A stretch of 64,000 nucleotides of DNA from a virus: IMG/VR virus record IMGVR_UViG_3300030419_007368, positions 1 through 64,000 of that record; one strand, written 5' to 3'. Below the pieces are notes generated by a model. The model saw nothing but the letters and a program-made list of their open reading frames with translations, was not told where the DNA came from and did no database searches. Made by a program: the position numbers and the translations under genes. Of this stretch, positions 1 through 51,899 are shown in pieces (within the stretch, counting starts at the first letter, position 1; the number at the start of each line of letters is the position of its first letter).

Positions 1-427
1 CATCAGCAACAGATTCGACACTCTGAGACAACTCCTTAATATTCTTCGTTATCTCTGCCACCGCCTTATCCATGCCCTTCTTCATCTCGACAGGTGATGC
101 GCCGGCAGCCAAGTACTTCTGACTATTGCGTAAAATCTCCCTAGCCAAGACAGTCGACGTCGTTGTACCGTCGCCAGCAACATTGTTGGTTTCAGATGCT
201 ACTTGTTTAATCAAGCTTGCCGCGGCATGCTCGAAAGGGTCATCCAGCTCCACAAAGTTAGCGACCGTCACACCGTCTTTTGTTATAACCGGGCGCCCTT
301 CTCCAGTAGACAAAATAACATTTCTGCCTTTTGGACCCAGCGTAGCTGCAACATTGTCAGCTAGCTTGTTAACGCCGTTTAGGATTTTTTGTTGCAGTTC
401 CGCTCTTTCAGCGTACAGCTTTGTCAT
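1..427 (-). CDS. groEL: GroEL-type chaperonin, N-terminal part (cut by window edge)
   Basis: Group I chaperonin, which folds proteins in an ATP-driven cage. The 142 residues visible contain the ATP-site signatures ATLGPKGRNVIL (about residues 29-40), KDGVTVA and GDGTTTSTVLAREI, with the catalytic-type Asp in GDGTT. The ATG at 427 is preceded by GAGG. The gene continues beyond position 1, so its length and whether the apical and C-terminal parts are intact cannot be judged. A GroES-like gene lies at 16601-16876, suggesting a phage-encoded pair that folds virion or replication proteins. Identity is seen directly. The phage role is inference, by analogy with chaperonins in other large phages. 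Confidence 0.95.
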   Translation of the reverse strand, partial: MTKLYAERAELQQKILNGVNKLADNVAATLGPKGRNVILSTGEGRPVITKDGVTVANFVELDDPFEHAAASLIKQVASETNNVAGDGTTTSTVLAREILRNSQKYLAAGASPVEMKKGMDKAVAEITKNIKELSQSVESVAD

Positions 428-482: not shown

Positions 483-2027
483 TTAATCTTTTTCTGCTTT
501 TCTTACATATGTTCTTTGACGTTTTTCAATTTGACCGGCTGTCCTTGCAGCTTCAAGGCCCATGTCACGATCACCGCCGATAAAATAACCGTTGATTTCG
601 TTGGTTAATTTCTCAACTCTAGAAAACAGTTCAAAGATCTGCTCATTTAAGATGTCGACATACTGCTCGGCCAGGTCGCGCACGGCTTGCTGGCCGATCT
701 TGATCTGTCCAATGAAGCCGAAGCCGTCTTGGTCATAGCGCTTCGGTTTGTAATACCGAGCACTTACAATAAACTGTGTTTCGCCGGCAGAACCCTCGTA
801 ACCAGAAGTTCTAGCTATTAAAGACCAAAAATACTCCGGGCCTTTGGCCAGCGCGGCTCGAAGCATAGCAACCGACTCTCTATAGCTACGGTACCCCTCA
901 TAAGTTTTCGCACCTACGTTTCTCCATCGAGAGTCTCCGGGTGGTAATTTCTCAAAGGTGACTGGCTCGTTATCTTTGTACAACCTGAAGGTCTTACCGC
1001 GCGGCGGTCGACCTTCGAATTCATCTTCATCTCGCAGTTCTGCCCCTGCAAAGAACTCTTTCGCATAATCAGAGTCATAAGAAGCTAATATCTTTTTGTA
1101 TTGGTTTAAGCCGCCTGGACCGCCCTTGGCCCAGCGTCTTGCTTCGTCAGTGTCCATGGAGATAGGACTGTAAGCTTCGTCTTCTGTCGCAGAAGGTTCT
1201 CTTGATGGGTCGGAAGACAAGTCTTTTGGAAGCAACAGCAGCTTATAATTCTTCTGATAAGAAAGCAAAGATTCCAAAAATGTCTTCGCTGTGAAATCAA
1301 ACTGAAAAAATCTAATCGCCTGTGGGACGTCGCCGGTCAGCGCTTTGGCTGAGCCGGCCTCTTTAAATGTCTTCAAGCCAACAATGTAACTCATGCGGCC
1401 TTCGGCTCCAGCTTGGCCAACATAATGACCGCTCTCTGGGTCTTGTTTTAGTCCACCTGGATCGATGAAGTGGTCGACCAAATCTCTGTAACTTCCGTGC
1501 ACGTCTCCAGGCTTCTCGCCCAACAACTTCAAGCTGACCGGGTTCTGGTCATTGTCAAGCAAGTCTTGGATACCAGAGGTACCAGCAGGCACCTGATGGC
1601 CACTAAGCAATGCTGCAAGGAAACCTTCAAAAGCAAACCCAGCCGCAGAAGCGTTAAAGTGCAGCAAAATGTTCGTTAATGTGTCCAAAAGCACAATGTG
1701 CGAGAGGATCTCCGATACGTCGTCTGTCTCGGGTGGATTCTCAATAAATTCATTAATATATTGTATTTTTTCAGTTAAGTTGTTTCCTTTAGCGACAATC
1801 TTGGACAAAAGATTCTGAATAATCTCTCTGTCTTTTGTACCTTCCTTGCCCCACATCTTCTCTGAGATTCGGATGATCGGAAGTTTGAGGGTTACATCGC
1901 GGCGAGAAGGTTCTCCCCGCTCATTGATGTTCTGTCGAACTCGATCAATCATCTCGAAAATAAGTTTTAAATCAGCCCTATTCTCGAAATAGTTCTCTTT
2001 AATATACTGCAATTCTTTCTTATTCAT
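483..2027 (-). CDS. conserved-looking phage protein of unknown function, 514 aa
   Basis: Not recognised with confidence. The N-terminal 120 residues are helical and charged. Residues 131-167 carry a pattern (E134 in FAFEGFLAALL, D155 in GIQDLL, K167 in PVSLKLL) that resembles a degenerate PD-(D/E)xK nuclease core with Ser in place of the second acid. The C-terminal third ends in a helical segment (QAVRDLAEQYVDIL). It has no signal peptide or membrane segment. The start has a good AGAGGT site, and the gene sits between groEL and clpP-like genes in one transcription direction. It could be a nuclease-fold enzyme or a virion protein; the nuclease idea is inference only. Confidence 0.8.
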   Translation of the reverse strand: MNKKELQYIKENYFENRADLKLIFEMIDRVRQNINERGEPSRRDVTLKLPIIRISEKMWGKEGTKDREIIQNLLSKIVAKGNNLTEKIQYINEFIENPPETDDVSEILSHIVLLDTLTNILLHFNASAAGFAFEGFLAALLSGHQVPAGTSGIQDLLDNDQNPVSLKLLGEKPGDVHGSYRDLVDHFIDPGGLKQDPESGHYVGQAGAEGRMSYIVGLKTFKEAGSAKALTGDVPQAIRFFQFDFTAKTFLESLLSYQKNYKLLLLPKDLSSDPSREPSATEDEAYSPISMDTDEARRWAKGGPGGLNQYKKILASYDSDYAKEFFAGAELRDEDEFEGRPPRGKTFRLYKDNEPVTFEKLPPGDSRWRNVGAKTYEGYRSYRESVAMLRAALAKGPEYFWSLIARTSGYEGSAGETQFIVSARYYKPKRYDQDGFGFIGQIKIGQQAVRDLAEQYVDILNEQIFELFSRVEKLTNEINGYFIGGDRDMGLEAARTAGQIEKRQRTYVRKAEKD

Positions 2028-2046: not shown

Positions 2047-2688
2047 TTAGAAAATTATATCTGCAATACCCAACTTTACAGCTTCGTGTGCATCGAAATA
2101 GACATTTGTCCTCTTGTCTATCAACTTTTTAATATACTTTTCTTCCATGTTCGTCTCTGAAGCTAAAGATTGAATGTACATCTTCTGTGTTAATTTTGTT
2201 TCAGCGAACTCGTTTTCCATATCCGCTATGTGCCCTGACTGTCCGGCTGCAACACCATGAATCATCACCCGACAGTTAGCGCCGATGCGACGTTCTCCCG
2301 TTGTGCCAGCAGCCAACAGCAGGACTCCAGCGGACATAACCTTTCCCACACCATATGTGTGTATGGGAGTGTCTTCTCTGATCATCCTCATAGTGTCGTA
2401 CACTCCAAACATCTCAGCCGCGTGTCCGCCGTGAGAGGATACATAAAAACTTATTGGTTGTATGACCTCTTCATACTCTGGCTCCTCCTCGGTACCGCCA
2501 GTTACAATCAGGTTTTTGCTGGTACTGTGAAGGGCCAGCAGGCCGTACATAGCATCACAACAACGATCTTCGTTAATATCTCCATAAATGCCAGTAACTC
2601 TCAGTTCTGACTGGCTTGATATGGAACTCAGTATGGAGGCGTTAGGGTTAGCGCCTTCTTTTGTCTTCTCATTGAATTTCCTAAACAA
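2047..2688 (-). CDS. clpP: ClpP-like serine protease
   Basis: Member of the ClpP/crotonase-fold serine peptidases. The family pattern is clear over the whole length: GDINED near the N-terminus, oxyanion strand SSHGG (84-88, NSPGG in ClpP), nucleophile Ser119 in GKVMSAG, catalytic His144 in VMIHG, and the C-terminal AHEAVKLGIAD helix. The third triad residue, Asp in bacterial ClpP (RDRF before the SAxEA helix), aligns with Asn195 in KRTNVYF. It starts at TTG with AAGGAG seven bases upstream, inside the end of the preceding gene (8-base overlap). It may degrade host proteins with a host Clp ATPase, or act in virion maturation. No ClpX-like partner is visible here. Confidence 0.9.
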   Translation of the reverse strand: MFRKFNEKTKEGANPNASILSSISSQSELRVTGIYGDINEDRCCDAMYGLLALHSTSKNLIVTGGTEEEPEYEEVIQPISFYVSSHGGHAAEMFGVYDTMRMIREDTPIHTYGVGKVMSAGVLLLAAGTTGERRIGANCRVMIHGVAAGQSGHIADMENEFAETKLTQKMYIQSLASETNMEEKYIKKLIDKRTNVYFDAHEAVKLGIADIIF

Positions 2689-4000: not shown

Positions 4001-4332
4001 AGATCATTCTCCACTTCTAATATGTCAAATATTGTTTTAATTTCTTCTTCTTTTAACGAAAATTTATCTTTATTTTCGCTAGCTAATCTGTGCATCTGCT
4101 TTATCTTTTTGCGCTTATTTTTGCCTTGTATCGCATTCTTTTCCTTACAAGAATCCAAAAAATTCAACACGCGCTCATCGCTCTCGATGTAACCGGTTAA
4201 CATAAAGCGAAAAAACTGTGATTGACTCAAGCCATCGTACTGACACCTTATCCTCAGCTTGGCTTGTCTTTCTGCGGTATCATAAAACATTATTTTCTTT
4301 CTTTCTTCAGTTTTAGAACCTTTGTCGCTCAT
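3997..4332 (-). CDS. ribbon-helix-helix-like regulator candidate
   Basis: 111 residues. Residues ~12-50 show the pattern of a ribbon-helix-helix DNA-binding domain: a short strand (KKIMFYDTAE), a helix (RQAKLRIRCQYDG) and a second helix opened by LSQSQFFRFML. The C-terminal part is Lys/Glu-rich and helical. It is coupled at both ends by 4-base ATGA overlaps (IMPDH/GMPR-like gene upstream, sigma-region-4-like gene downstream), which suggests a small regulatory cassette. The fold assignment is inference from the pattern, and the target is unknown. Confidence 0.75.
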   Translation of the reverse strand: MSDKGSKTEERKKIMFYDTAERQAKLRIRCQYDGLSQSQFFRFMLTGYIESDERVLNFLDSCKEKNAIQGKNKRKKIKQMHRLASENKDKFSLKEEEIKTIFDILEVENDL

Positions 4333-5351
4333 TTATCTCTCCAAAGGATGTGAGTTCCGGATTCGCTTTGGCCCGCTGAAGTCTGAGTCGTGAATTCACA
4401 GTTTAATTGCAGGTCTCTAATGCTAGTGCATCCTGAATAGGATAAGCCACTTCGAATGCCTCCGGCAATATCTCTCAACACTTCAGCGACCGGGCCGCGA
4501 TATGCAACAGTAGAGGACACGCCCTCTGGTGTAGAGGATTTCCCCCTCCAATCCTTTTGTGCGTTGCTCGAAGCCATCCCTCTATAAACCTTATATCTAG
4601 ACCCATCGGCGGAAGTAAACACTTGCCCCGGAGTCTCTTTTGTTCCAGCTAACATCGACCCCAACATCACAAAGTCAGCGCCGGCGGCTAGGGCCTTGAT
4701 TATATCGCCGCTAGTTTTGAAGCCGCCGTCAGCTACAATGGGTATTTCATGAGCAGTTCTTGCGCAATCGATGACGCTCTGCAACGTTGGTACACCATGC
4801 CCACTAACCAGCCGGGTGGAGCAAATAGAGCCACCGCCAATTCCGACACGAACTGAGTCGGCGCCCCATGAAGCAAGATCGTCAAACGCTTCTAGCGTTG
4901 CAACATTTCCCGCCATAAGGTGCACATCACGCCCAAATTTGTTCTTCAAACTGGACAGAGCATCTCTCATCATCACGTGATGGCCATGAGCTACGTCGAT
5001 ACAAAGTATGTTGGCGCCGGAGTCGACAACATTTTGCGCCCTCTCTAAGAAGTCGCCAGTCATACCGATTGCTGCAGCCACATGCTTGACGCCGGAAGTA
5101 TAAACATCAAAAACGATCTTAGCCTGTTCTTCGACAGAGTTATACCTGTGAATAATTCCCAACCCGCCGGCGGAAGACATAGACTTTGCCATGTTAAGCT
5201 CGGTAACCGTGTCCATGGGACTAGATATCACAGGTAGAGTAAGCTCAATGGATTCGGACAAGAACGCACTGGTATCGACATCAGACCTGCTGCGTATTTC
5301 ACTATATTTTGGCACTAGGAGTGTATCATCAAATGACAGCGATTTCTTCAT
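4329..5351 (-). CDS. guaB-like: IMP dehydrogenase / GMP reductase family enzyme
   Basis: A (beta/alpha)8 NAD(P)-dependent purine enzyme of 340 residues. It shows the substrate loop GGGSICSTR with catalytic Cys177, the phosphate site [24 protein letters not shown], the flap YRGMASS and the [12 protein letters not shown] segment. The CBS domain pair of typical IMPDH (about 490 residues) is absent, as in GMP reductase (about 350), so the direction (IMP to XMP, or GMP to IMP) cannot be fixed from sequence. The ATG at 5351 was chosen because AGAGG precedes it and it gives an ATGA overlap with the DUF3310 gene. It would adjust guanine nucleotide pools during infection. Confidence 0.9.
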
Positions 5352-5680
5352 TGTTGACCGCCTCTTAGGTTGTTCAGTCTTCGCTGCAAATACCAAATTG
5401 CCTTCTCGATATCTCTCACTGCAGTGCCTTTGTGCATATGTCGGGATATATACTTGATGGCGTTACCGCAATTAAAGTCCAAATTCCAATCTTCTATAAC
5501 ATCAATGGTTTCATAAGCGCCATGATTGTAGTGCGAAGGGTGATCGACTAGGTTTAGCTTTACGTTCACTAAAGTACTGTTAGTTCCATCTGGATCGCAA
5601 GTCGAACCACCCTTAGGATGGCGATCTCGCATGTCCAGTTGCGCTGTGTTGTCGTGCCTGTTCTTTCTCTTATCTTTCAT
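5348..5680 (-). CDS. DUF3310 family protein
   Basis: 110 residues. The C-terminal ~60 match DUF3310: DHPSHYNHGAYETIDVIEDW, NCGNAIKYISRH and KAIWYLQRR. The domain is found in phage genes of nucleotide metabolism, such as the T7 gp1.7 nucleotide kinase, but alone it has no proven activity. Start ATG 5680 has AAGGAG at the ideal distance; an in-frame extension to 5713 has no such site. It lies between dUTPase (10-base gap) and the IMPDH/GMPR-like gene (ATGA overlap), in line with a nucleotide role. Confidence 0.88.
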   Translation of the reverse strand: MKDKRKNRHDNTAQLDMRDRHPKGGSTCDPDGTNSTLVNVKLNLVDHPSHYNHGAYETIDVIEDWNLDFNCGNAIKYISRHMHKGTAVRDIEKAIWYLQRRLNNLRGGQQ

Positions 5681-9929: not shown

Positions 9930-11525
9930 TTAATTATTTAAGATTTCAGACTGTATAGACAATATCAACCTTTTAATTTCTTCCAGATTTCTGCGCTGGG
10001 CTGCGTCTTTATATACCTTTCGCTTGTGGTAGTGAGTATTGCCCTTGACTTTGCCGTAGACGCCGGATCCCATTGCGTCATAATACTTTTTTCCGACCCT
10101 ACTCAAGACCCACTTGTAGGTCTTGTTAACTACTTGCCTGTACTTTTGATAGTTATACTCTTTTCCGTGACAATTAATGGTCGCGGCCGGCCCGACAGGT
10201 GGAGGACCTCCCCACTCATCTACCTTATTTGCTAATTTTATAACGTACCTGGATACGTAATCCGAAAAAACCTCCGGGTCGAGCGCTCGACAGACGTCAT
10301 TACCACCAAGAGTAACAATTCTTATTGATGTGGGATTGTAAGCTGCAATAGTCTCTGCCATACTCTTCTGCTCTTGCAGTTTCTTTTTGTCCTTTTTCGA
10401 CTTGCCCTGTAGGTCGGCCTGCTTTGCCATAAACAAAGTTTCATACCACCATCTTGATGAAGCTCCGTTCCTGTACAGAACTCTAACCGCTCTGTCCGAC
10501 GTCTCAAATTTCTTAATTAAAGTTGCCTCCTGGTAGGCGGTCGACGAGTCTCCAATAAAAAGAATTCTTTCTTTATACTTCTCGAAGCTTTTTGGTACAA
10601 ATACGTACGTATAGGAAAAAGTAACGGCTATTGGAACGCCATTTTTCTTGGCCGGTGCAAACTCAGACCTCCGTAAAGCGTCCATAACGACCTGGACAAA
10701 TTCCTTTGTAACGCGCTTTGAATTGGGGCGGTCTGGGTCAAGCTTGGTGCCTATTACTTTCCCTTCAGCATCGAGGGTCACCAGCACAGACACACCTAGC
10801 CGAGCCTTTACGGTCGGCTCAGGGACCGGGCGAGCGAGCTTTAGTAACTTAGGGTTCTCAATACCGGCTGGGGCGGGGGGATCAGCATGCACCACTCCAT
10901 GATTTGGATAAAGCTGCTTAAACGCCTCTGCCCCCGTTTTTACTTTTGTGGCATAGCTTCTGACAGGTCGACCGTAGTATATGTCAGTAGTCTTAAGATA
11001 ATACTTCATATCTCCAGTTTTCACCGCTTTATTCGCTGGTATCACTAGTCTTTTTCCTACGGCTTTCACAAACCTGGTTAAAAGCTCCATGCTAACACGC
11101 GCCGGGTCGCTTTGATAAGCCTCCCAAGCTTGTTGAGGGTCGGGATAAATCTTCAAAAGATGACGACCCATGACTTGAAAAGTACCCCACGCGGTTGATG
11201 CAATTGCAGCTTTCGGAGCAATTTTAAAAGCCTTTTCGAAATTTCTATATTTTGCCCGGTGATCAGAGTAAGTTTTTTTTCCGGATTGGTGAGGGCCGAT
11301 ATGTAATTTTTGCTTTTTAAGCTCCGGTATTTTATCCTCTTCGCCGAACTCTTTTGCGCGAGCAAGTAAATGATTATTGTTGAATGCTCGGGCGCCTGGA
11401 GAAAACGAGGTTTCAACCAAAGCCATACCGGCTATCCAAGCCGGATGCACTCCTGTATTGCTCGCCGCTTCGATAAGCAAATCATAATTGCTTTTTATCT
11501 TTTTTTTAGCTTTTTCTATATTCAT
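9930..11525 (-). CDS. muramidase / TonB_C-like / SGNH hydrolase fusion
   Basis: 531 residues, three parts. Residues ~1-210 resemble the phage N-acetylmuramidase family DUF3380 (ALVETSFSPGA with candidate acid Glu38; STAWGTFQVMG at 110-120). Residues ~240-310 match a TonB C-terminal-like fold (VLVTLDAEGKVIGT, ALRRSEFAPAKKNG). Residues ~318-530 form an SGNH/GDSL hydrolase: FIGDSS with nucleophile Ser327, a glycine in RNGASS, GGND (407-410), and a late His in GNTHYH. It likely cuts glycan and removes acyl groups from the wall or surface polysaccharide, in the tail or at lysis. There is no signal peptide. The leader is AT-rich with no clear Shine-Dalgarno. Confidence 0.8.
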   Translation of the reverse strand: MNIEKAKKKIKSNYDLLIEAASNTGVHPAWIAGMALVETSFSPGARAFNNNHLLARAKEFGEEDKIPELKKQKLHIGPHQSGKKTYSDHRAKYRNFEKAFKIAPKAAIASTAWGTFQVMGRHLLKIYPDPQQAWEAYQSDPARVSMELLTRFVKAVGKRLVIPANKAVKTGDMKYYLKTTDIYYGRPVRSYATKVKTGAEAFKQLYPNHGVVHADPPAPAGIENPKLLKLARPVPEPTVKARLGVSVLVTLDAEGKVIGTKLDPDRPNSKRVTKEFVQVVMDALRRSEFAPAKKNGVPIAVTFSYTYVFVPKSFEKYKERILFIGDSSTAYQEATLIKKFETSDRAVRVLYRNGASSRWWYETLFMAKQADLQGKSKKDKKKLQEQKSMAETIAAYNPTSIRIVTLGGNDVCRALDPEVFSDYVSRYVIKLANKVDEWGGPPPVGPAATINCHGKEYNYQKYRQVVNKTYKWVLSRVGKKYYDAMGSGVYGKVKGNTHYHKRKVYKDAAQRRNLEEIKRLILSIQSEILNN

Positions 11526-16600: not shown

Positions 16601-16876
16601 CTAAAACTCGGCTTCTCCCACAAACCCTGTCACGTGGTTTTCCAAAACTACATGGTATTCCTCTCCCAGGACATTAATGCTTTCAAGTGCGTGCTTGGGC
16701 ACCACCAGTACCATTCCAGTTCTCAACTTAGATTCCACATGTGGTTCTAACAAAGTCACTAAGCAGTAGTTTGAAGTGTCCACTTCGACATCATCTGGCA
16801 ACAAGATAGAAGAACTCTCTTCCTTCTCCTCTTCTTTCGGTTTAACAACCAAATGTCTGTTAACTGGATAAATCAT
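16601..16876 (-). CDS. groES-like: GroES-like co-chaperonin
   Basis: 91 residues with the GroES layout: first strand PVNRHLVVKP, a charged mobile-loop region (EEEKEESSSILLPDD, ending in the hydrophobic ILLP that would contact GroEL), a strand near GMVLVVPKHA, and the final strands EYHVVLENHVTGFV. The canonical roof-loop sequence is not obvious and overall identity is low, as in T4 gp31-type co-chaperonins. With a phage GroEL at 1-427 it may form a dedicated folding chamber. It follows the 16880-17128 gene by three bases and may share the TTGACA promoter at 17155-17182. Confidence 0.8.
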   Translation of the reverse strand: MIYPVNRHLVVKPKEEEKEESSSILLPDDVEVDTSNYCLVTLLEPHVESKLRTGMVLVVPKHALESINVLGEEYHVVLENHVTGFVGEAEF

Positions 16877-16879
16877 CTT

Positions 16880-17128
16880 TCACGCTCCCGTAATTTTACG
16901 ATTTAGTTTATCAAAATAATCAGTGAATTGACTAATGTCATCACCCTTTTTCAGCATGCGATAAGCCCTCACCGCTTGCCTCATCTCTTCCTTAGATAGC
17001 CAGCCATTTTGAACATAGTTTTTTCGTAAGTCTCGCTTGTGTTCCTTATATGGTTCCATTTCATCTTCGATGGCCTGCAGGGCCTTGATGTATTCTACAA
17101 CGTACTCTTCAGTGGTAAGGTCACTCAT
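16880..17128 (-). CDS. small helical protein, unknown
   Basis: 82 residues, mostly charged helix (VEYIKALQAIEDEMEPYKEHKRD), then KEEMRQAVRAYRMLKKG. A GapR/DUF2312-like coiled coil was considered but does not match well. It has an excellent AAAGGAGGA ribosome site. It is first in a two-gene unit with the GroES-like gene, right after a candidate sigma70 promoter. Confidence 0.8.
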   Translation of the reverse strand: MSDLTTEEYVVEYIKALQAIEDEMEPYKEHKRDLRKNYVQNGWLSKEEMRQAVRAYRMLKKGDDISQFTDYFDKLNRKITGA

Positions 17129-17183: not shown

Positions 17184-19040
17184 TTAAACTATTTCGCAAG
17201 CGCCGCCTGAGCAAGCTAGCTCTCCCGACAGATTCGTGTTGTCCTCTATCTCCACGACTTTCTTGATGTCAAAATCTGTCAGTGAATCAACAAGGACTTG
17301 ATATTTTTCTTTCGAGCAGTCCTCGAATGGCGCTTGCTTGTAGGTGTGGTCTTCAAATGGTAGAACAGACAGCCCATTGTAGCAATCTCTATTTTCCCAC
17401 ATCCAATCACCAACATCAGTCCACTCGGCCGGCCTGATAGAAATAGTAGCAGACACATTGTGGGTGTTCTGACCACGATGGTGGCCCGGGCGGATCCAGT
17501 TCTCTGTAACGCTCTTTACTCTCTTTAGAAGCTGGAGCGCGGACTCCTGGCGCGTGATAGCTCCCTCTGGGGCACACTGCGGCACTGAGATGACCGCAGT
17601 ATCGTGCGGTCTGAAGTACTCATCTTCAATCAGCTCAGGGTTGTTGACAAGCAAGTGTGTGTAAATTGCCTCGTTCTTTCCGACTCTCATCCTACGGACA
17701 TAGTAATCGTTATGCCAAGCGTGTATACCACTTGATGTACCTAAAGCTAGTGACGTCGTGCCGGCGGGCTTTACGCAGGTGGTTCGAGCGGCTGGCTTAA
17801 TACCTATTAGATCTGCGACGCGGCGATTCTCCTGTCTGACGGCCGTAGCCGCGGCCTTCATGTCTAAATCTAAAACCTTCCCAGATGCGATACCAGTCAT
17901 TGAAACGCCGATGAGGGCATCTTTTTCTGTCGTTCGTCGCCAGACTTCACGCAAATAATGAAAATCAGTATAACCAGCCTGCAAGGTAGCAATTAATGTT
18001 GCGGCGCGGACCCTGGATTCGTACTCTTCCTGTGACTCAAGATCAGAAGCGTTAACCTCCACCAAATTACAAAACTGGTAAGGGCGTAGAGCAATTTCGC
18101 AACAAGGATTTGTACCCCAGTCTTTATCATTGGTAAAATAGAAGCCGGGCTCTCCAGATCCAGAAGCTCGCACTCTCTCCCACAGGTTATCAAAAAATTC
18201 TTTAGTAATCCGGTGACGCATCAGGGCTATCGAGTTGTTTGCTCTACCTCTTTGGGGGTGCTTCTCCCACCAGTTTCCTGCCTTAGCTGCGAGAAGCTCT
18301 TCATCATCTGCTGAAAACAATGATATGAGAGCAGCGCGACGGATGCCCCCGGCAAGCACAGCATCAGCAATATGACAAACAATGTCGTGTACTTCGATTG
18401 TCTCAAGTTTATCTCCACTCTCCTTTTCCTCTAAAATGCCCTGAATTTTTACTAGACATTCTTTAAGAGGTTGCGGGCCAGGTGCGCGGCCCCCAGAAGT
18501 AACTAGCTTGGCGCCCTTCGCACGGATGTCACTAAAATCAAAACGTATTCTGGAGCCACCTTTAAAGTATGAGCCCATGAGGACTTTTATAGAGTCCGCC
18601 CACCCTTCAATAGAATCAGAAATTAGATATCTTCTAGTTCTTTTGGAGCTTGGCTTTTGGATTTCAGGTAATTTTTCAACGTGATGCTTTTGTACAGAAA
18701 ATCCAACACCAGTTCCCCCAAGTAGGAGAAACATTGTCTCACTAAAAGCCAAAGCATGATCAATAGGAAGGTAGGCACAATTGTAAATCCTGTTAGGAGC
18801 CACTTCAATCGGCTTTCCTCCGAACTGTAGTGACCGCATCGACGGAAGTACTTTCTTCTTGTATACATACTTATAGGCCCCCTCTATTTCTTCTTTGAGA
18901 TCTGGATATTTTTTAATATGCATCCTCTTATTACGAGTAACTATCTCCCGCCAGCTTTCCCGCCTTTCTTTTTTCGGAAGGTAACGGGCATATTTCATGT
19001 AAATTGTGATATCTGATAAAATCTCACTCGTTGGTTGCAT
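17184..19040 (-). CDS. nrdJ: adenosylcobalamin-dependent (class II) ribonucleotide reductase
   Basis: Reduces ribonucleotides to deoxyribonucleotides with a B12 cofactor and no oxygen requirement. 618 residues, shorter than the 739-residue Lactobacillus monomeric enzyme. Its catalytic set is complete by alignment spacing: thiyl-type Cys313 and Glu315 in NPCCEI, the redox pair Cys88 (IYNCAY) and Cys324 (QFCNLVEV), and the C-terminal shuttle CxxxxC (Cys610, Cys615) in ACSGGACEIV. LLLGGTGVGFSVQ and VRASGSGEPGFYF are typical of the family. It overlaps the helicase gene by 17 bases. It needs cobalamin from the host or environment. Confidence 0.95.
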   Translation of the reverse strand: MQPTSEILSDITIYMKYARYLPKKERRESWREIVTRNKRMHIKKYPDLKEEIEGAYKYVYKKKVLPSMRSLQFGGKPIEVAPNRIYNCAYLPIDHALAFSETMFLLLGGTGVGFSVQKHHVEKLPEIQKPSSKRTRRYLISDSIEGWADSIKVLMGSYFKGGSRIRFDFSDIRAKGAKLVTSGGRAPGPQPLKECLVKIQGILEEKESGDKLETIEVHDIVCHIADAVLAGGIRRAALISLFSADDEELLAAKAGNWWEKHPQRGRANNSIALMRHRITKEFFDNLWERVRASGSGEPGFYFTNDKDWGTNPCCEIALRPYQFCNLVEVNASDLESQEEYESRVRAATLIATLQAGYTDFHYLREVWRRTTEKDALIGVSMTGIASGKVLDLDMKAAATAVRQENRRVADLIGIKPAARTTCVKPAGTTSLALGTSSGIHAWHNDYYVRRMRVGKNEAIYTHLLVNNPELIEDEYFRPHDTAVISVPQCAPEGAITRQESALQLLKRVKSVTENWIRPGHHRGQNTHNVSATISIRPAEWTDVGDWMWENRDCYNGLSVLPFEDHTYKQAPFEDCSKEKYQVLVDSLTDFDIKKVVEIEDNTNLSGELACSGGACEIV

Positions 19041-35774: not shown

Positions 35775-38700
35775 TTAGTCATCAAAAGATGCCCCACTTC
35801 TGGCAATAATGAAATCTAAAGCGATAAATTCAATAGCTCTTGCCGGCTTCAAGAAGATCTTGGCATACAAAATATTCCTGTCGATCAAATCCGGGGTTGT
35901 AGTGGAGTCATCCAACACAACTCTGAAGTCGGTCAAGCCTAGCCCAGACTTAACACCGTCAAGGAAAGGAACAACTTCTCCCTTGAAACGGTCCCAAGTT
36001 TGTTGCACATTTTGCTCGAAAAGCATTCGTGACGCAATTCTGGAAATCTCTTTCTTAACAAATATTAGCAATCTTCGCACGTTAATCCTATCCAGAGCGG
36101 AAGGAGTGACCTGCAAGGTTTTTTGACCAAAGATCACGACGCCTTCTGCAGGAAAGCTGGCGATGGGGTTGATATTGGCGTCATATAGCTTGTCACGCTC
36201 CGCAGACGTAAGTCTCTGTCTCACACCGAGAACTGGCAAACCGGCCGAACCTTCACTCAACCCACCACGAGTAAACCCTGCCGGGGCGAACCAGACAGCA
36301 GATTTTCGCTGAGAACTTGAGAAAGTACCAAGTGCGACAACAGACGGCGGCACGTATAGCGACGCGTCATTTAAATTATCGCGAACTTTAACAAACGGAT
36401 AGAACATGCATCCATAACTTGAGTTGACAGCAAAAGTCTTAAGGTTGGTCACTGCTGTGTCAACGCTTCCAACTCTTGCTGACTCAAGAGTGTTTGTTTC
36501 GTGTGCGGGTGTGTAGCCGCCGGCAATATCAAGAATCGCTAAGGCATCGCCACGATCTTCACATACGTTGAGAATTTGATTATTTAACGTATTTCTGGTC
36601 AATCCAGGCACAGTAAGAACATCGAACTCTGCAAATTCAGCGTCGGAAACCAAATCAACTGCTTTCTTGATACTGTAGTATGCATAGTTAGTGGTTTCAT
36701 TTTCACTACCCTTAGAAATAAAGTTATTTCGGAGTGGGTCTTTTTCTGTGATATCAAACCCGTCAGTTCCACCGAACATCGGAACAGTAAATTGGTCATA
36801 GCCTCTGCTGAGTACGTAATGGTCGTTTGTCGCACCACTCACAGCAGTGAAGGAAAGGTCGCTGGCTCTTGAGCCGGAGACCCAAACTGCATGCTTAGCG
36901 TCTTCAGGAGACTCTTTCACGTCATCTAGTGTAAATACCCAAGAATACTGACTTGAACCAGCCACTCGTGCTGTTGGGTCGTGCCCAGCAACTCTGAGCC
37001 TGTGCAAATCCAAGTTGGTTGGGTCAAACCTTCTCGTGCCCTTGAGCACCGACTGATACCCAAAGTAAGCTTGCGAACCTAACACCATGTTTCCTTCTGA
37101 CGAAGAAACCCGTAGACGAGCAGTTGGAAATTCAAATGAAGAAGTCAACGCAAAACGGTTGTTCATCAAGTCTGTCTTGCCCAGCTGCCGAAAGGCGCTC
37201 GGGATGCTGGCGCTTGGCAGGCAGTTCGCGCTTCCGCTACCAACAACCCACGAAGAAATACCGGCGCCGCCGTTATCCGTCACGGTCGTGGCTGTTGAGC
37301 CGCTAAGTACCCTGAAAGTTACCGGGACAGTCGGCCCATATCCTCCATAGGGAAGGAGCGTTTTTTGTCCTGCAAGGCCATCTTTAATCTTTGGGGCAAC
37401 CTCGACACGAAGAATCTTCGAAACGTTGTCGTAGTTTCCGTGCTCCACAATTGTTTTATTATCGGAGTTATATTCGTAGTATCTATCTCCAATGGCTTTA
37501 GCAATGTAGTTCGTCGAAGTTGGGTCTAGATTAAGGCCACTGTATCTTTCCACAATTTGTGGCTTGTTGTCAGAATCCGAGTTTCTTCGCACCACAATAG
37601 AAAATGTGCCATATTTGTTGAATTTATCAGTCGGAGCTTTAATGTCCTGAATAGAAACTTTGTAATCTCTATTCGCGGAGGCGCCGCTATCCAAAGCATG
37701 GAACTTAAAGAGCAGCTCTGTGTGCTGAGTCGGATTGAAATTGGACGTTGTTGTCCCTCTCGTGTCTTGAGAAATAATCCAGCCAGTTTGTGCTGCTGTG
37801 GCTTGCTGCCTTTTATCCTGCCAGTCAATTGCTGAGCCATCGGCTGTGCCTTCTAGTCCAAGAATCACACCCAACATCTCACTGCCATCCGCAACTGCAG
37901 AACCAGTGACGGTAAGCTGACTGTTTTCAGACAGTTTCAGGTTGGAATCAAAAGTTTCTCCAAGCCAGTAATACTCCAAAGTCGTTGTGTCAGTGTTTAC
38001 CAAGTCCGCATTCGTTTTTGTTGGATCGGTATTGAACACTTTTCTGATATATAAGTCAGATGTTTCGTCGAAGTTAAAAGTGGCTGACTTAAGAACATTA
38101 GTGTTTGTCACTCCGTCCTTAACAACTTTAGCAGTAAATTTGGCTCCGCTATCGCCTTTAATAGGTACGCCGGCGGCGAAAGTCCTGGAGATGCCTTCAC
38201 GGTCATTGCCTTCCAGCACGACAGCGCCATCTTGAACATACCAAACAGCAGCTAGCGTTCCAGTTACTGGCCAGTTGTCTCCTTCATTGAAGAGTTGAGT
38301 AACCGTAGCGTTGCTCAAGCCCTCGACTATAGCAGTGTTCCCGAGTGGACCGGGAGACGACTGTGTTAGCTGCAATATAGGGCCGTCTGCAACGGCGGTG
38401 ATTTTTCCATTATGGCCGCTAGCATGATTGATGGATTGTGTAAGTGACTGCGCCACCACAGTAGCGCTGCTGGTGACGGCAAACTGCTGATTCTCATTAT
38501 CTTGTGTGTCCGCATGACCGGTGTATGTCACAGAAGTTCCGTCATATGAAATAAGTGTAAGAGTCTCTCCGTTCGAAGGATTGCCAGTAAAAGTTATTTC
38601 GGCAGTAGCGACCGTATTCCCGTAAGAATCCGGATTGGGAAACACAAACAGTCCATATGCGCCGCCCGCTTCGCCGATATCAACGTTCAAAGTATTGTCA

Positions 38701-39068
38701 GTAGTCCAGCCGGCCAGCGCAGTACTAACAGAAGAGTCTGCGTTTGAAGCGTTTTCACCCAACACCCTATAGACGGTGCATGGGGAGTTGTTGCGCAGCC
38801 AAGCTTGAGCCGCGTATGCAGCGTAAGTGGGCGCGGTTAACTCACCGTTGCGCCAAATATCGCCTTTGGCGTTCCCGGGTGATGGGTATCCGAAGACCTC
38901 TACAAATTCTTTAAATGAATTTACTCGCACCGGTCTGTTCGAAGGGCCTTTTTGGAAACGGCCAATAATCATAGGTCCCATCCGCGCAGGAAGCGCGGGC
39001 AGTCCTGATTCATCAATCTCTTCTAGGAAAACACCCGGTGAAACAAATTTAAACTTATCAACTGCCAT
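35775..39068 (-). CDS. contractile tail sheath protein, very long
   Basis: 1097 residues; T4 gp18 has 659. The N-terminus (SPGVFLEEIDESGLPALPARMGPMIIG) and the C-terminal sheath domain (RLTSAERDKLYDANINPIA, TWDRFKGEVVPFLDGVKS) are clear. The extra length lies in the middle (about residues 130-700): beta-rich, Ser/Thr/Asn-rich insertions that would face outward on the sheath. Late-promoter-like motif 51 bases upstream. Confidence 0.93.
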   Translation of the reverse strand: MAVDKFKFVSPGVFLEEIDESGLPALPARMGPMIIGRFQKGPSNRPVRVNSFKEFVEVFGYPSPGNAKGDIWRNGELTAPTYAAYAAQAWLRNNSPCTVYRVLGENASNADSSVSTALAGWTTDNTLNVDIGEAGGAYGLFVFPNPDSYGNTVATAEITFTGNPSNGETLTLISYDGTSVTYTGHADTQDNENQQFAVTSSATVVAQSLTQSINHASGHNGKITAVADGPILQLTQSSPGPLGNTAIVEGLSNATVTQLFNEGDNWPVTGTLAAVWYVQDGAVVLEGNDREGISRTFAAGVPIKGDSGAKFTAKVVKDGVTNTNVLKSATFNFDETSDLYIRKVFNTDPTKTNADLVNTDTTTLEYYWLGETFDSNLKLSENSQLTVTGSAVADGSEMLGVILGLEGTADGSAIDWQDKRQQATAAQTGWIISQDTRGTTTSNFNPTQHTELLFKFHALDSGASANRDYKVSIQDIKAPTDKFNKYGTFSIVVRRNSDSDNKPQIVERYSGLNLDPTSTNYIAKAIGDRYYEYNSDNKTIVEHGNYDNVSKILRVEVAPKIKDGLAGQKTLLPYGGYGPTVPVTFRVLSGSTATTVTDNGGAGISSWVVGSGSANCLPSASIPSAFRQLGKTDLMNNRFALTSSFEFPTARLRVSSSEGNMVLGSQAYFGYQSVLKGTRRFDPTNLDLHRLRVAGHDPTARVAGSSQYSWVFTLDDVKESPEDAKHAVWVSGSRASDLSFTAVSGATNDHYVLSRGYDQFTVPMFGGTDGFDITEKDPLRNNFISKGSENETTNYAYYSIKKAVDLVSDAEFAEFDVLTVPGLTRNTLNNQILNVCEDRGDALAILDIAGGYTPAHETNTLESARVGSVDTAVTNLKTFAVNSSYGCMFYPFVKVRDNLNDASLYVPPSVVALGTFSSSQRKSAVWFAPAGFTRGGLSEGSAGLPVLGVRQRLTSAERDKLYDANINPIASFPAEGVVIFGQKTLQVTPSALDRINVRRLLIFVKKEISRIASRMLFEQNVQQTWDRFKGEVVPFLDGVKSGLGLTDFRVVLDDSTTTPDLIDRNILYAKIFLKPARAIEFIALDFIIARSGASFDD

Positions 39069-44637: not shown

Positions 44638-46497
44638 TTAGCTAGTTGCGCCAGCCTCACCAAGCAAGCCACGTACGATCACAAGACCATACATATCAGG
44701 ACGTACCATCTTCTTAGCGTAGCGGGTCATAACGCCCTTACGCGGCACGAAGTCTTCCGGTCCAAAAATGGTCGGAGTGACTTGTAGCGGCACGTACGGA
44801 GCATACACATATCCACTCTCTAAGAAGCTTCCGCCTCTGCGGCCAACAAGGATGACGTTTCTTGGGAAGTAGGGATCAACCCACACGTCCCATTTCTTGG
44901 ACATCGATCCAACGTTGACAGCACCAACGGTGCCCCGATCTGCATCGGCAGTGATATTAGCACGGAAGCCAGCAGTAAACTCAAGGATGTTAGCAACTTC
45001 AGGTGAGGTCACCAGGAAGTTAGCTCCACCGCGGAGAGTCTTTCTGTGGATCTGGGCCGACACATCGTTGATCGTCTCAACGAGAGTCTCATACCACTCG
45101 CTGACAGTACCAGTGAAGTCTGGAGCAGCCGAAGATGCACCAAGCTCAGCGCCAGTTACTCTGTTAACGAACAAGCCAGGCGCTCGCGACCAGTAGTACG
45201 TGCTAGCGGTTGCACCTTCAATAAGATCCAGAACAATCTCACGATCAATCTCCAGAGCAATATGCTCAGAGAGGATTTGAGTAAGTTCGACTTCTGCATC
45301 GAGATTGTGGTAGGCATTGAGATCTTGTCCCAACTCCGGAGTCCACTTAGCCTTGAGCTTCTTGGTAACTGCGGTTACTGCGATACTCTCGACTTGAATG
45401 TCGATCTCTGGAATCTGGTTCTTCGCGTCAGACGAAGCTCCACCAGTAGGTGAAGTAGCAGCGCTAACGCCAGCCTCTTCAAGAGCCCACTCGGAAGCAC
45501 CTCGGACAGAACCTAATGCATCACCAGTCTCGAACGTATCAGCCAGAGGGCCAACAAGCCGGATGTCCTGCGCGTCCATGTCGCCAGCCGTAATAGAGCC
45601 GGTGAAATAGAACGTCAAACCGATATCCCCAGTTGAGGTGTCCTTGTAGGAAATAGTGTTAGTATCCCCCTCTCGAATACCCAAATGAGTCAAGCGACGA
45701 AGCTGATGAATTGCACTAAAGTTGGTTCCTGCAACATCCTCAAGGTGGAATGCACCAAGAGCGTTGAAGTTAAACTTGTCAGCGTTAGCTTTGCTCAGCT
45801 TCACTACCAGAGCCTGAACTTCGTTCGTGTCCGAAGACGCAAGAACGTCAGGATCATAGTTGATAGCAGCCTTCTGGTTCTCAGTTAAGTTCTGGACTTG
45901 GACCTCAGAACCACCCGTCCAGGGGCTAAGAGAAGCACCAATGACGTTAAACTCGTCAGAGCCCAGGGTACCCCAGTTGGCAGTCGTATCTTTCACCAGG
46001 TGAACTGAACCGGTTGGTGAAGAGTAAGCGTTTGCTAACTCGTAGAATCCACCACCATCCTCAGTGATGTCAGTAACACCAGTTTGGATGCCAGATCCGG
46101 TAACTCCACCACCGTAAACCGAGGGGTTTCCACCCAGGCCAAAGCGATTAGTGGTTTGGTCACTCAACGTGAAATCCAAGAAGAAAATCAGCCCAGAGGG
46201 CAGACTCATCGGCTGGACCGACACAAGGTCGTTGGCCAGAAGACCACCGAAAACACGGCGGACGATTGGGAAAGCGACCGAAGCGAAACCTTCGACGTCC
46301 CCAGTAGACATTGCAGATGCCTCTTTAAGCAGCTGCGCAGCCTGGTTTTCTAAAAGACGGGACATGCCCTGTCTCTTTGCATCGCCTTCGATACCCTCAA
46401 GAAGTCCGGTACGCTCCCATTTTTCTACAACGGCAGCACCTTCTCTTCTAAGGTTACGTTCAGCAATGCCTTCAGTTAGTTTTTGTAAAACAGACAT
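44638..46497 (-). CDS. major capsid protein (gp23-like)
   Basis: 619 residues. The N-terminal signature KWERTGLLEGIEG, SRLLENQAAQLLKEAS and IVRRVFGGLLANDLVSVQPM, then LPSGLIFFLDF, is the T4-like gp23 hallmark. A predicted prohead-protease site lies at Leu57-Lys-Glu59/Ala60, the counterpart of the T4 gp23 cleavage after residue 65. The HK97-fold core follows. The gene ends at a strong terminator and is co-transcribed from the scaffold gene; no own promoter was seen. Confidence 0.96.
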   Translation of the reverse strand: MSVLQKLTEGIAERNLRREGAAVVEKWERTGLLEGIEGDAKRQGMSRLLENQAAQLLKEASAMSTGDVEGFASVAFPIVRRVFGGLLANDLVSVQPMSLPSGLIFFLDFTLSDQTTNRFGLGGNPSVYGGGVTGSGIQTGVTDITEDGGGFYELANAYSSPTGSVHLVKDTTANWGTLGSDEFNVIGASLSPWTGGSEVQVQNLTENQKAAINYDPDVLASSDTNEVQALVVKLSKANADKFNFNALGAFHLEDVAGTNFSAIHQLRRLTHLGIREGDTNTISYKDTSTGDIGLTFYFTGSITAGDMDAQDIRLVGPLADTFETGDALGSVRGASEWALEEAGVSAATSPTGGASSDAKNQIPEIDIQVESIAVTAVTKKLKAKWTPELGQDLNAYHNLDAEVELTQILSEHIALEIDREIVLDLIEGATASTYYWSRAPGLFVNRVTGAELGASSAAPDFTGTVSEWYETLVETINDVSAQIHRKTLRGGANFLVTSPEVANILEFTAGFRANITADADRGTVGAVNVGSMSKKWDVWVDPYFPRNVILVGRRGGSFLESGYVYAPYVPLQVTPTIFGPEDFVPRKGVMTRYAKKMVRPDMYGLVIVRGLLGEAGATS

Positions 46498-47837: not shown

Positions 47838-50800
47838 TTACGCATCATACGCTTCAATGGTTGGGTTGTTGCTCATAAAGCCTTGCACCATCCAGAAGCC
47901 GTTTACAGAGACAACATCTATATAATCACCCGGGTGGCCAGCTGACCAAGTGATCTTACCGTCTGAGCCTGCAGGACCGGTTAATTGATCGGTATCCATG
48001 GCTGCATCGGTGGTATCATTGTTCACGGATTTAATCCAGCCGATCATATTGTTGGACGTTGATTTTAGGACGTGCGCGCGGCCTCCAGCTGAGATGAATT
48101 TAAAATGTACGCCGTCAGTATCTGCTGGCAGCGTTATTGTTCGTGCTGTATTCGAGGGCAGGACGATAATCATACCACTCATCGCAGCAGTAAGTGTGCG
48201 ATCGGCTTGGACACCAAATACTGGCAGCTTGTGGCCCAGGCCAGCACAGAAGTGGTTGGTGAGAGGAGACTCGGGATTTGTTCTAGCAATCTCAGTCGCA
48301 GAACTACCGCTCATCGAGGTAATAATTAAATTACCGGTCTCGTTGTCGCTCGACACATCAACCGACTGTGCTTCGATCTTTACATATTCAGTGTCTGTCG
48401 GAGTGCCATTGTCCTCTCCGTAAAAAGACAAGGTTCCAAGATAGTCATCATCCGAACCGTCGGTGCCGGCTGAATTCTCAAATCTTAAAATTGGGCCGCG
48501 AGCGTCTGCATTAGAATTCTTAAGTCTTAACAGTGGGTTAGCTTCAGACGCGACAGTGGTTTCAATGAGCACTGTCTCGCCGGCAGTATCCGCCATGGCG
48601 TCATTTAAAACATAAAGTCCTCGGGCGCCGACTGCGGCCGTGTTGTCGTTGTGAATCTTGACCAAGTCTCTAGCAGAGACATTAGCAGAATCTGAGGCGA
48701 GGTTCAAAATACTGCCACCCTGCAGGGCATCTGCTGAGATGGTAATAGCGCTACCAGTCATAAGCGAATCAGCAGTAACACTTACGACGTGCTGAGTCTT
48801 GTTAAGCGCGGTGATGTCTAAAGCTAGTTGATTTGTAACATGGTTTTCAATTTTAACCGCGGTGTTGCCGAATTCAGCAGGACTTTCGACCTCGAACATT
48901 GCTTGTGGGTTAGCTGTACCGACAGCGACAGTTCCGGAAACGAAGAGGGCAGCATAATTACTGTCTCCACCTGTGACGTTGACGTCTAATCCAACATTAT
49001 TAATTTGACCCGTGGCGTTGGATGACACAATATCAATGTCAATACCGGCCATCATGACAGATGAAGCGCCGTTGTTCGTTGCCGTATCATTTAGATCTAA
49101 ATCAAGACCAGTAATTGCAACAGCTTGTGCTGCACCTACAGTGCCAGTCTTGTCAATGTCAATATGAGCAACAGTCGTTACTTGATTTGATGTAGCTGTG
49201 TTGTCAACGTCAATAAAAAGCGCCTTTCCAGTAGTTAAGGAGGTCGCAGAAACATCAATAACATTCGCAGTTGTATTTGATGCATCGATATCAAGCGCAA
49301 CTTCGTCTACATCGTTATTGTCGATAAGTAAAGCAGGGTACCCGTTTGTGGAAGGGTTTTGGATGCTCATGGATGACGTTAGTGCGCCATGTATTGGGCT
49401 GAATTTCATGACATCAGTGCCGCCGGCTTCCAACACTAGAACGTCGTCCGCGGAGGCTCTAATTGAAGTATCATCATCAGCGTCCAAGTCAATGCGACCA
49501 TCTCCGCCTATGCTAATTGATCCTTGACCATTTAAATCAATATCGTCAACATAAAGCGTACGCCATGCGGTGCTGGATGAGCCAAGATCATCTGCACTAT
49601 CCCCACCGGGCAAAACATTACTACCGGCCGGGTCGAGAATAATATCGCCGCCGGCGGCAAGAGTTGTGTTGCCTCCGTCAGCTACAGACAAAGAAGAATC
49701 ATCTGCTGCGTCGTCGCCTTGGTCGGCGCTCAAGTATAAAGCTGCCGCGGCGCCATCAGCAACAGTTGTTAGATATACGCTGCCAGTCAAGAATAGGCCA
49801 TTCGGAGCCAGCTTCATTAAATCAGTACCGCCAACCTCAAAATCAATTTCATCATCACTGGACGAACGGATAGAAGTATCGGCATCGACGTCGAGATCTA
49901 AGCGGCCTTGGCCGTTGAGGTCGACATCATCAACATATAGCTTACGCCAGGCGATGGTCGGAGAGCCGAGGTCGTCTGCACTGTCGCTTCCTGGTAGCAC
50001 ATTGCTACCGCCCGGATCAAGAATAATATCATCAGCCGCAGTAACCGTAAAATCGCCCGAAGGTACGTCGATCGTAAGAGAAGAGCCCATCGAAAATGTT
50101 GCTTTTGTGGTACCGCCATCTTTAAAAATAACGTCCGCTCCATTAGCGTCCAGCACCACGTCGGTTGACGACGAAAGAGCTAGAATACCAGTTGAACTAA
50201 CAGTAATTGGCGAGCCGGCAATTACTGCGCCAGTCGACCCATCATGAGTAATAGTGAAATCGTTACCTGCACCCATGTTGAAAACTGCAGAGTCGGACGT
50301 CAGGGAAAGGTCGTCTCCTACAGACAGATCAGTCGAAAACTCACCTGAACCTGTAACAACCAAACCAGTAGAGATGTCGACAGCAGACCCTCCAGAAATA
50401 GGACCAACAACTTGCAGGCCGCCGGCAACTGTAGCGTTTCCATTAGTGGTCAAGTTTCCGGTGATAGTAACATTGTTGGGCAATCCGACTGTAACTGTGT
50501 TGCCGGTTGCAGATGTGTCAATCTCATTCGCTGTCCCTGCAATTGTAAGTGTCTCGCTGTCTAAATCAATTGCAATTGTGCCGGAGTCTGTAGTGACATC
50601 TAAGTCTTCAGCAGATACTGCAGCGTTAATTCTATCATCAATGGCTGCAGAGGTCATTAAGCTTGTGTTGTTGTCTGCGAAAGACTCAGCAGATGTTTGT
50701 ATTGCTGTCACACCGACATTATCAATGGTAACAGTACTATTAAAAGTTGCGCTACCTGTTACTGCGAGGTTGTCGTTAATAGATGTCTCTGATGTTGTAT

Positions 50801-51899
50801 GTCCAATAGACACTGGAACGCTACTTATAGTGCCTACCTTGATGCCATTGCTGGTGCTCCCCGCAGATAATGTTATTCCGCCGGTGGAATTTGTCGCGGA
50901 TAATGTTATTCCGCCGACATCTGAAACGAGAGAGATTGAATCATCTCCAGTGCCTTGGTTAGAGTTCACGATGATAGTTTCATCACTGCCTCCGTTGGCT
51001 TCAATTCTTATTGCGTTATCGCCATTCTTTCCTGAATATAGCCCTATACCGCCTACATCACTGACTAAATTAATTGATGCGTCGGTTGAATTACCTGCTG
51101 TGTTCGTACCAGTGCCTTGATCAGAATGGATTGAGATAGTCTCGTTTGCCCCACCATCAGCCTCGATTTGAATACAACCTTCTAAGTTCGCTGTCGACCT
51201 AATTCCTACTCCGCCGGCGAGGGCTGTAAACTGGATAGCCGACCCAGTAGGGCCGACGGATACGCCAGAAGTATTGGTTACTGAGTAAAGCTCCAGAGAT
51301 GGGGTGCCATGCGGTGCTATAATTGTTTCAACGGCGCCATTCTTTCCTAATTTTAGCGTCTGGCCATCTGCCAGGGTGGCGCCAACTGTTATAGAAGCAA
51401 CAGTTGAGTCAATCGCCACTTCTTGATTCGCGTTTACATCAAGTGCACCGTCCAGGGTAAATGTTAGATCAGCTGCAGCGGCGTCATCGTCAACAGTCGT
51501 GAAGGTTGTGGCGCCGTGTGTGTCCGTTGTGATGCTAAAATAATCCCCAGTATCACTGTCGTCCATCATCTTGAAAACAACATTAGCAACATCAAAATCG
51601 AAGACAGTCGTCGTGCCATCGTCCATTGTAATATTATCGCCATCTGCAGAAAGAGCAATATCGCCGGCGCTGTCTATAGTCAGACCGTTTGGTGCTGTAA
51701 GTGTGTTCGCGGTAATGGTTACAGAATCGCCAGAAGCATCACCAAGCACCATAGTATTGGCTGACACTTTGAAGTCTTCTACGTTGACGTCCATAGTTCC
51801 GGTAACAAACAAGTTTCCGCGGAAATGAGTATCGTCAGCAAGAACTGTTACCCTAGAGCCAGTCGCTGCAGTTATATTGTTTACGTAAAGTGTTCCCAT
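47838..51899 (-). CDS. very long beta-repeat fibre-like protein
   Basis: 1353 residues, rich in Asp, Ser, Thr, Gly and Ile/Val with almost no Cys, the profile of a trimeric beta-helix fibre. Begins MGTLYVNNITAATGSRVTV. Contains two ~80-residue duplications (about residues 623-698 and 751-832) with GSNVLPG(S/G)DSADDLGS and the LYVDD(V/I)DLNGQG strand, and an earlier pair at about 246-336. The C-terminus (HPGDYIDVVSVNGFWMVQGF) looks like a compact trimerisation or tip domain. Likely a tail or head fibre that binds the host. Late-promoter-like motif 20 bases upstream. Confidence 0.9.
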   Translation of the reverse strand: MGTLYVNNITAATGSRVTVLADDTHFRGNLFVTGTMDVNVEDFKVSANTMVLGDASGDSVTITANTLTAPNGLTIDSAGDIALSADGDNITMDDGTTTVFDFDVANVVFKMMDDSDTGDYFSITTDTHGATTFTTVDDDAAAADLTFTLDGALDVNANQEVAIDSTVASITVGATLADGQTLKLGKNGAVETIIAPHGTPSLELYSVTNTSGVSVGPTGSAIQFTALAGGVGIRSTANLEGCIQIEADGGANETISIHSDQGTGTNTAGNSTDASINLVSDVGGIGLYSGKNGDNAIRIEANGGSDETIIVNSNQGTGDDSISLVSDVGGITLSATNSTGGITLSAGSTSNGIKVGTISSVPVSIGHTTSETSINDNLAVTGSATFNSTVTIDNVGVTAIQTSAESFADNNTSLMTSAAIDDRINAAVSAEDLDVTTDSGTIAIDLDSETLTIAGTANEIDTSATGNTVTVGLPNNVTITGNLTTNGNATVAGGLQVVGPISGGSAVDISTGLVVTGSGEFSTDLSVGDDLSLTSDSAVFNMGAGNDFTITHDGSTGAVIAGSPITVSSTGILALSSSTDVVLDANGADVIFKDGGTTKATFSMGSSLTIDVPSGDFTVTAADDIILDPGGSNVLPGSDSADDLGSPTIAWRKLYVDDVDLNGQGRLDLDVDADTSIRSSSDDEIDFEVGGTDLMKLAPNGLFLTGSVYLTTVADGAAAALYLSADQGDDAADDSSLSVADGGNTTLAAGGDIILDPAGSNVLPGGDSADDLGSSSTAWRTLYVDDIDLNGQGSISIGGDGRIDLDADDDTSIRASADDVLVLEAGGTDVMKFSPIHGALTSSMSIQNPSTNGYPALLIDNNDVDEVALDIDASNTTANVIDVSATSLTTGKALFIDVDNTATSNQVTTVAHIDIDKTGTVGAAQAVAITGLDLDLNDTATNNGASSVMMAGIDIDIVSSNATGQINNVGLDVNVTGGDSNYAALFVSGTVAVGTANPQAMFEVESPAEFGNTAVKIENHVTNQLALDITALNKTQHVVSVTADSLMTGSAITISADALQGGSILNLASDSANVSARDLVKIHNDNTAAVGARGLYVLNDAMADTAGETVLIETTVASEANPLLRLKNSNADARGPILRFENSAGTDGSDDDYLGTLSFYGEDNGTPTDTEYVKIEAQSVDVSSDNETGNLIITSMSGSSATEIARTNPESPLTNHFCAGLGHKLPVFGVQADRTLTAAMSGMIIVLPSNTARTITLPADTDGVHFKFISAGGRAHVLKSTSNNMIGWIKSVNNDTTDAAMDTDQLTGPAGSDGKITWSAGHPGDYIDVVSVNGFWMVQGFMSNNPTIEAYDA
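49404..50033 (-). repeat. internal duplication within a fibre gene
   Basis: Two diverged ~230-245-base segments (about 49806-50033 and 49404-49649), translated as closely similar beta modules of the fibre at 47838-51899. Confidence 0.7.

Follow-up and report, generated by a model that had tools for sequence, protein, structure and literature searches.

The GroES lid docks on the apical groove of GroEL after ATP binding and encloses the client protein. Marine et al. 2017 (ISME J) are said, in citing papers such as PMC7185714, to have described virioplankton GroES/GroEL pairs, which resemble the pair reported here in that marine phages carry a divergent GroEL with a GroES of its own. PMC7185714 states that phages with both GroEL and GroES exist, citing Marine et al. 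2017, and viral GroEL/GroES have been reported to be common in Southern Ocean viruses (PMC8407431). Two GenBank isolates, Vibrio phage Va1 (MK387337) and Flavobacterium phage immuto (MW353176), also encode both proteins. The original prediction for this locus held that most phages bring either a GroES or a GroEL and not both; given these isolates and the statements of the two papers, that rarity was overstated, as such double carriers had been described before. As in our locus, GroES of Va1 lies upstream of GroEL (about 7.4 kb), on the same strand and near T4-like structural genes, and it matches our profile A3 weakly (13.7 bits). Unlike the GroELs of our lineage, however, the Va1 GroEL keeps D83, R197 and Y203 and sits between the sheath and tube genes, while immuto differs in having adjacent, bacterial-style groES-groEL genes and a GroEL that retains R197, Y203 and 17 C-terminal tail residues. 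T4 gp31 shares with our protein the GroES fold (Z 8.4), a reduced roof (the loops are absent in gp31 and shortened here) and a genome that encodes a Gp23 capsid protein, but it partners the host GroEL (PMC6318259), unlike what we propose here. Phages EL (gp146), OBP and AR9 also encode GroEL relatives; no partner GroES has been identified for EL and OBP, and the EL protein is 22% identical to GroEL (PMC7185714), whereas the GroELs of our lineage are 40-46% identical to that of E. coli. In crass-like phage phi14:2, the neighbours of GroEL gave no match when tested as GroES with profile A3. One phi14:2 protein in the viral structure library is a weak fold match to our GroES model.

The locus lies in a 64,000-nucleotide stretch of DNA from a large uncultured phage, hereafter the window, in which GroES and GroEL share one strand without being adjacent; GroEL lies downstream at a distance of about 16.2 kb. 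The genes to which we refer are the following:

2..427, minus strand: GroEL (group I chaperonin), N-terminal 142 residues (PF00118; PHROG GroEL)
182..184, minus strand: Asn82 codon in the truncated GroEL, corresponding to E. coli D83 in an alignment that has no gaps nearby
483..2027, minus strand: orf514, directly upstream of GroEL, no Pfam or PHROG match; fast-evolving but syntenic
2047..2688, minus strand: ClpP-type head maturation protease (Pfam CLP_protease, 101.6 bits; PHROG head maturation protease)
4329-5396, minus strand: IMP dehydrogenase/GMP reductase-type enzyme (Pfam IMPDH, 369 bits)
9930-11525, minus strand: one 531-aa chain that combines an N-acetylmuramidase domain and a weakly matching GDSL-lipase-like region
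16601..16876, minus strand: GroES/Cpn10-type co-chaperonin, 91 aa, 10.3 kDa (Pfam Cpn10, PHROG 3188, AlphaFold2 model, VIA-align)
16880..17128, minus strand: orf82, 82 aa, no Pfam match over the cut-off; immediately precedes GroES in all GroES-side relatives that were compared
17184..19040, minus strand: ribonucleotide reductase, B12-type by Pfam (phrog_367); upstream neighbour of orf82-GroES
35775..39068, minus strand: tail sheath protein, 1097 aa, 118.5 kDa (PHROG tail sheath, E 2.2e-68)
44638..46497, minus strand: major capsid protein, Gp23 family, 619 aa, 66.1 kDa (Pfam Gp23, 238 bits)
47838-51899, minus strand: 1353-aa protein, very acidic (pI 4.05), without a Pfam match

The GroES reading frame starts with ATG, is preceded by a ribosome-binding-like GGGAG and begins 3 bases past the stop codon of orf82. 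Its 91-aa product is matched over residues 2-84 by Pfam Cpn10 (PF00166; 27.4 bits, E 3.5e-6), above the curated cut-off of 21.1 bits, and by PHROG 3188, 'co-chaperonin GroES' (E 1.7e-4). Comparison of the sequence alone with solved GroES structures gave weak matches (E 0.014 to 0.7), while a profile of 41 phage relatives reached bacterial GroES chains at E 2e-5. Single-protein searches for relatives among viral contigs and annotated phages returned no matches because the family diverges fast, and a profile built from GroEL-linked records recovered relatives that such searches had missed; alignment A1, with its 14 rows, proved too diverse to scan the collection with. No relative was confirmed in the bacterial genomes searched, so these gave no lead to a host or a prophage. 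The weak single-sequence matches would fit some other small beta-barrel protein whose resemblance to GroES is due to chance. We consider this extremely improbable, as the Cpn10 score, the profile matches to GroES chains, the match in fold with a disordered mobile loop and the preserved docking tripeptide (below) all speak against it, and both fold and family already refute the idea. By sequence and by model, the 91-aa protein is a true, if divergent, GroES (Cpn10).

The AlphaFold2 model, for which a 41-sequence alignment served as input, has a mean pLDDT of 80.6 (at least 90 for 58 residues) and presents the GroES barrel at high confidence. When it was compared with the PDB using Foldseek, the best 35 matches were all Cpn10, GroES, gp31 or related co-chaperonin chains (prob 0.97-1.00), and among predicted viral structures the named best matches were GroES. 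VIA-align placed it closest to Thermus Cpn10 (1wnr; Z 10.5, rmsd 1.9 over 65 residues), with T4 gp31 (1g31) at Z 8.4-8.6 and the highest non-chaperonin chain at Z 6.7. Rows below Z 7, which are NADPH quinone oxidoreductases, were set aside, as all they have in common with GroES is the GroES-like barrel. The mobile-loop-like region read earlier from the letters was borne out, as was the expectation of a GroES barrel on structure prediction; of the two families proposed for a profile search, Cpn10 was recovered, but a sequence relation to gp31 was not detected with profile A3 (-0.8 bits, E 1.1). Three segments of the protein deserve attention:

16787..16828, minus strand: mobile loop, residues 17-30 (pLDDT below 50; alignment with the bacterial GroES mobile loop)
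16799..16807, minus strand: hydrophobic tripeptide I24-L25-L26, followed by P27 (column comparison of 29 bacterial GroES and 40 phage relatives)
16712..16744, minus strand: shortened roof segment, residues 45-55 (alignment; flanking strands 37-44 and 56-60 in the model)

Residues 17-30 form the sole run of three or more residues with pLDDT below 50. Within them, I24-L25-L26 is in register with I25-V26-L27 of E. coli GroES, which docks on GroEL; in the 41 phage members, all residues but one in these columns are hydrophobic, and the next proline is invariant. The roof comprises 12 aligned residues here, where E. coli GroES and the majority of bacterial ones have 18; it is about six residues short, resembling that of gp31.

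The second partner, GroEL, most likely starts at the ATG at 427, although a TTG at 442 is possible; the relatives start similarly (e.g., MTKVYA). Its identity is clear from PF00118, which matches the 147-residue fragment with 98.7 bits over positions 1-112 of 490, and from PHROG GroEL (E 9.1e-43), in agreement with the original prediction of a GroEL starting at 427, in the same orientation and some 16 kb away. The virus record (147,474 bases) ends at window base 1, and the protein is therefore cut after residue 142. The part that can be read keeps the ATP-site residues T30-P33, D52 and D87-T91. We sought the intact C-terminal part in related records and found a full-length GroEL in 28 of 30 (open frames of 520-546 aa), the two exceptions being one at a record end and one, in G016, that is in two pieces. 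D52, D87-T91, D398, G415 and D495 are invariant in the 28 aligned GroELs, while position 479 varies; the apical, intermediate and C-terminal parts, D398 included, are intact in all 28 and also in all 11 further GroELs. The groove positions 204, 237 and 263 are kept in 28/28, and positions 199, 234, 259 and 264 are nearly always hydrophobic, the one exception being an H at 259. A quick tree placed the phage lineage, the window GroEL and L214, a contig discussed below, in one group (support 0.47), which joined phi14:2 with a support of 1.0. This group lies apart from the sampled bacteria, with one Bacteroidetes MAG nearby, and its placement among bacteria is not firm.

We then examined how regularly the two genes occur together. 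With profile A1, GroES was found in 28 of 38 GroEL records. Among the 30 records in which GroEL could be placed, 26 carry one GroES, which always shares the strand of GroEL and lies upstream of it by 11.5-20.3 kb (median 14.5); the four without it contain only 6.2-12.6 kb of upstream sequence, so that the pair is present in all 26 with enough of it. Conversely, when the search was seeded with GroES, 11 of 15 records carried a GroEL 12-23 kb downstream, and three of the other four end within 11.7 kb downstream. The order common to the relatives is UvsX, exonuclease, DnaB, RNR, orf82, GroES, SLT-like, PolIII alpha, dUTPase, IMPDH, ClpP-type protease, orf514 and GroEL. The position of the IMPDH-type gene between dUTPase and the protease is conserved in them. 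The upstream gene, orf82, shows stronger conservation than GroES (32-85% vs. 28-52% identity) and is always adjacent to it, even in the most divergent relative. GroES and GroEL distances are also correlated in a mirror-tree comparison of 24 genomes (r 0.76, with 0 of 5000 permutations as high), a value that common descent of the genomes could produce, as the comparison was made without a control gene. Conservation of the pair across the lineage fits a dedicated folding chamber, and our main reading, to which we assign a probability of roughly 80%, is that the phage GroES acts as a heptameric lid on the phage's own GroEL, with the Gp23-type capsid protein most likely as its main client. Against it we have counted that the two genes are non-adjacent, that Tyr203 is replaced and that the window GroEL is cut at residue 142.

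The fourth GroES-seeded record, G050, carries GroES and lacks GroEL in its 76 kb. Such a genome would fit a different arrangement, in which GroES is a gp31-like lid for the host GroEL and the phage GroEL works without a lid, as reported for EL and OBP. There are precedents for both halves of this proposal, since gp31 is the model phage lid for host GroEL (PMC6318259) and the EL chaperonin does not interact with E. coli GroES (PMC7185714). Nevertheless, the missing GroEL of G050 says little, because PolIII, IMPDH and the protease were likewise not found in the next 36 kb, and for the same reason we rejected G050 as a true GroES-without-GroEL genome. More importantly, neither the 26/26 pairing nor the conserved groove residues would be expected if the phage GroES and GroEL did not cooperate, and we regard a lid for the host chaperonin as unlikely. 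In G050 (L275-L276), orf82-GroES-SLT-orf250 leads into other genes, one of them a 2095-aa ORF, and not into the PolIII-IMPDH-protease-GroEL block; this layout is either a rearrangement or an assembly join.

Under the preferred reading, a lid on the phage's own chaperonin, GroES would form a heptamer on the group I GroEL, with the Ile-Leu-Leu of its mobile loop docking on the hydrophobic groove of the apical domains, and an ATP-driven cycle would close the chamber so that phage proteins fold inside it during infection. The original prediction named both the sheath and the capsid protein as possible clients of a dedicated chamber. The capacity of the GroEL-GroES chamber is said to be up to about 60-70 kDa (PMC10723157), and gp23 (56 kDa) already needs gp31, which has no roof loops and has longer mobile loops, features thought to let a larger GroEL-gp31 chamber fold gp23 (PMC6318259). 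With 66.1 kDa, the capsid protein is near this limit, which together with the need of gp23 for gp31 makes it the best candidate, whereas the 118.5-kDa sheath protein exceeds what such a chamber can enclose; this half of the proposal was not upheld. A Gp23-type capsid gene is present in 21 of 22 records, and the open frames in related records span 568-691 aa. By analogy with gp23 and T4 gp31/GroEL, the Gp23-type capsid protein is most likely the main client. Frequent GroEL/GroES analogues in Southern Ocean viruses have been interpreted as cold adaptation (PMC8407431), and one could imagine in the same way that the lid serves both phage and host GroEL and that the pair mainly buffers general folding stress, such as cold, with no specific capsid client. 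We find this improbable, even more so than a lid for the host GroEL, as GroES and GroEL are tied here to a single phage lineage, whose Gp23-type capsid protein is large.

The GroELs of this lineage also differ from their bacterial counterparts at positions of known importance. We compared 28 phage GroELs with 36 bacterial GroELs obtained with the same query, which are nearest sequences and not a balanced sample. In all 28 phage proteins the acidic residue at 83 is gone (D/E in 35/36 bacterial), as are the basic residue at 197 (R/K in 36/36) and the acidic residue at 461 (D/E in 33/36), and Tyr203 has given way to A, Q, S or T (bacterial Y 35, H 1). The tail past E. coli position 523 has 0-5 residues in the phage GroELs vs. 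15-43 in most bacteria. A second set of 11 GroELs, reached via GroES, has all the same losses, which brings the count to 39 of 39 full-length GroELs examined. The only loss readable within the window is at position 83, where GroEL has Asn and the D83-K327 salt bridge is without its acidic partner. The engineered E. coli mutant D83A/R197A, whose taut state is destabilised, was made by removing this bridge and R197-E386 (PMC5941174, PMC10723157), and a stabilising role at the ring interface is attributed to R452-E461 (PMC5941174). GroEL of crass-like phi14:2 has T at 83 and S at 197, while Va1 keeps D83, R197 and Y203, so the losses are not general to phage GroELs. As Tyr203 is replaced in every related GroEL, docking of the lid would have to differ in detail. 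Judging from the alignments, both parts of the chamber appear to be without elements that occupy or tense the bacterial chamber, and the short roof and the missing GroEL tails may give more room. The D83-K327 and R197-E386 bridges, the E461 contact, the C-terminal tail and part of the GroES roof are lost; as to the consequence, we tentatively raise the possibility, on which we would not insist, of a naturally 'relaxed', roomier chaperonin that opens easily, is possibly single-ringed and has an enlarged chamber fitted to the 66-kDa capsid protein.

The combination of a short-roofed lid with a tail-less, salt-bridge-poor GroEL may be a distinct variant and may be new. Since lid, chamber and probable client (the Gp23-type capsid protein) are encoded in one genome, capsid folding could be rebuilt from phage parts alone. 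Moreover, if the losses of D83, R197, Y203, E461 and the tail act as expected, these proteins would provide natural evidence on which parts of GroEL allostery and of the double-ring design are dispensable.

Finally, some observations concern other proteins of the window and its relatives. The capsid protein matches the Gp23 profile in two stretches (2-62 and 61-354) with a gap of about 140 residues between them, suggesting an inserted domain. In the tail sheath protein, the Pfam sheath domains match the C-terminal end only (803-1086), and the approximately 800 N-terminal residues are additional or unrecognised. L214 (NZBZ01000006.1), filed as a bacterial MAG, encodes a GroEL that is 63% identical to the window GroEL and has the phage-type losses (S83, S197, A203 and no tail), with two phage genes adjoining it; this contig is probably viral and ended up in a bacterial bin.
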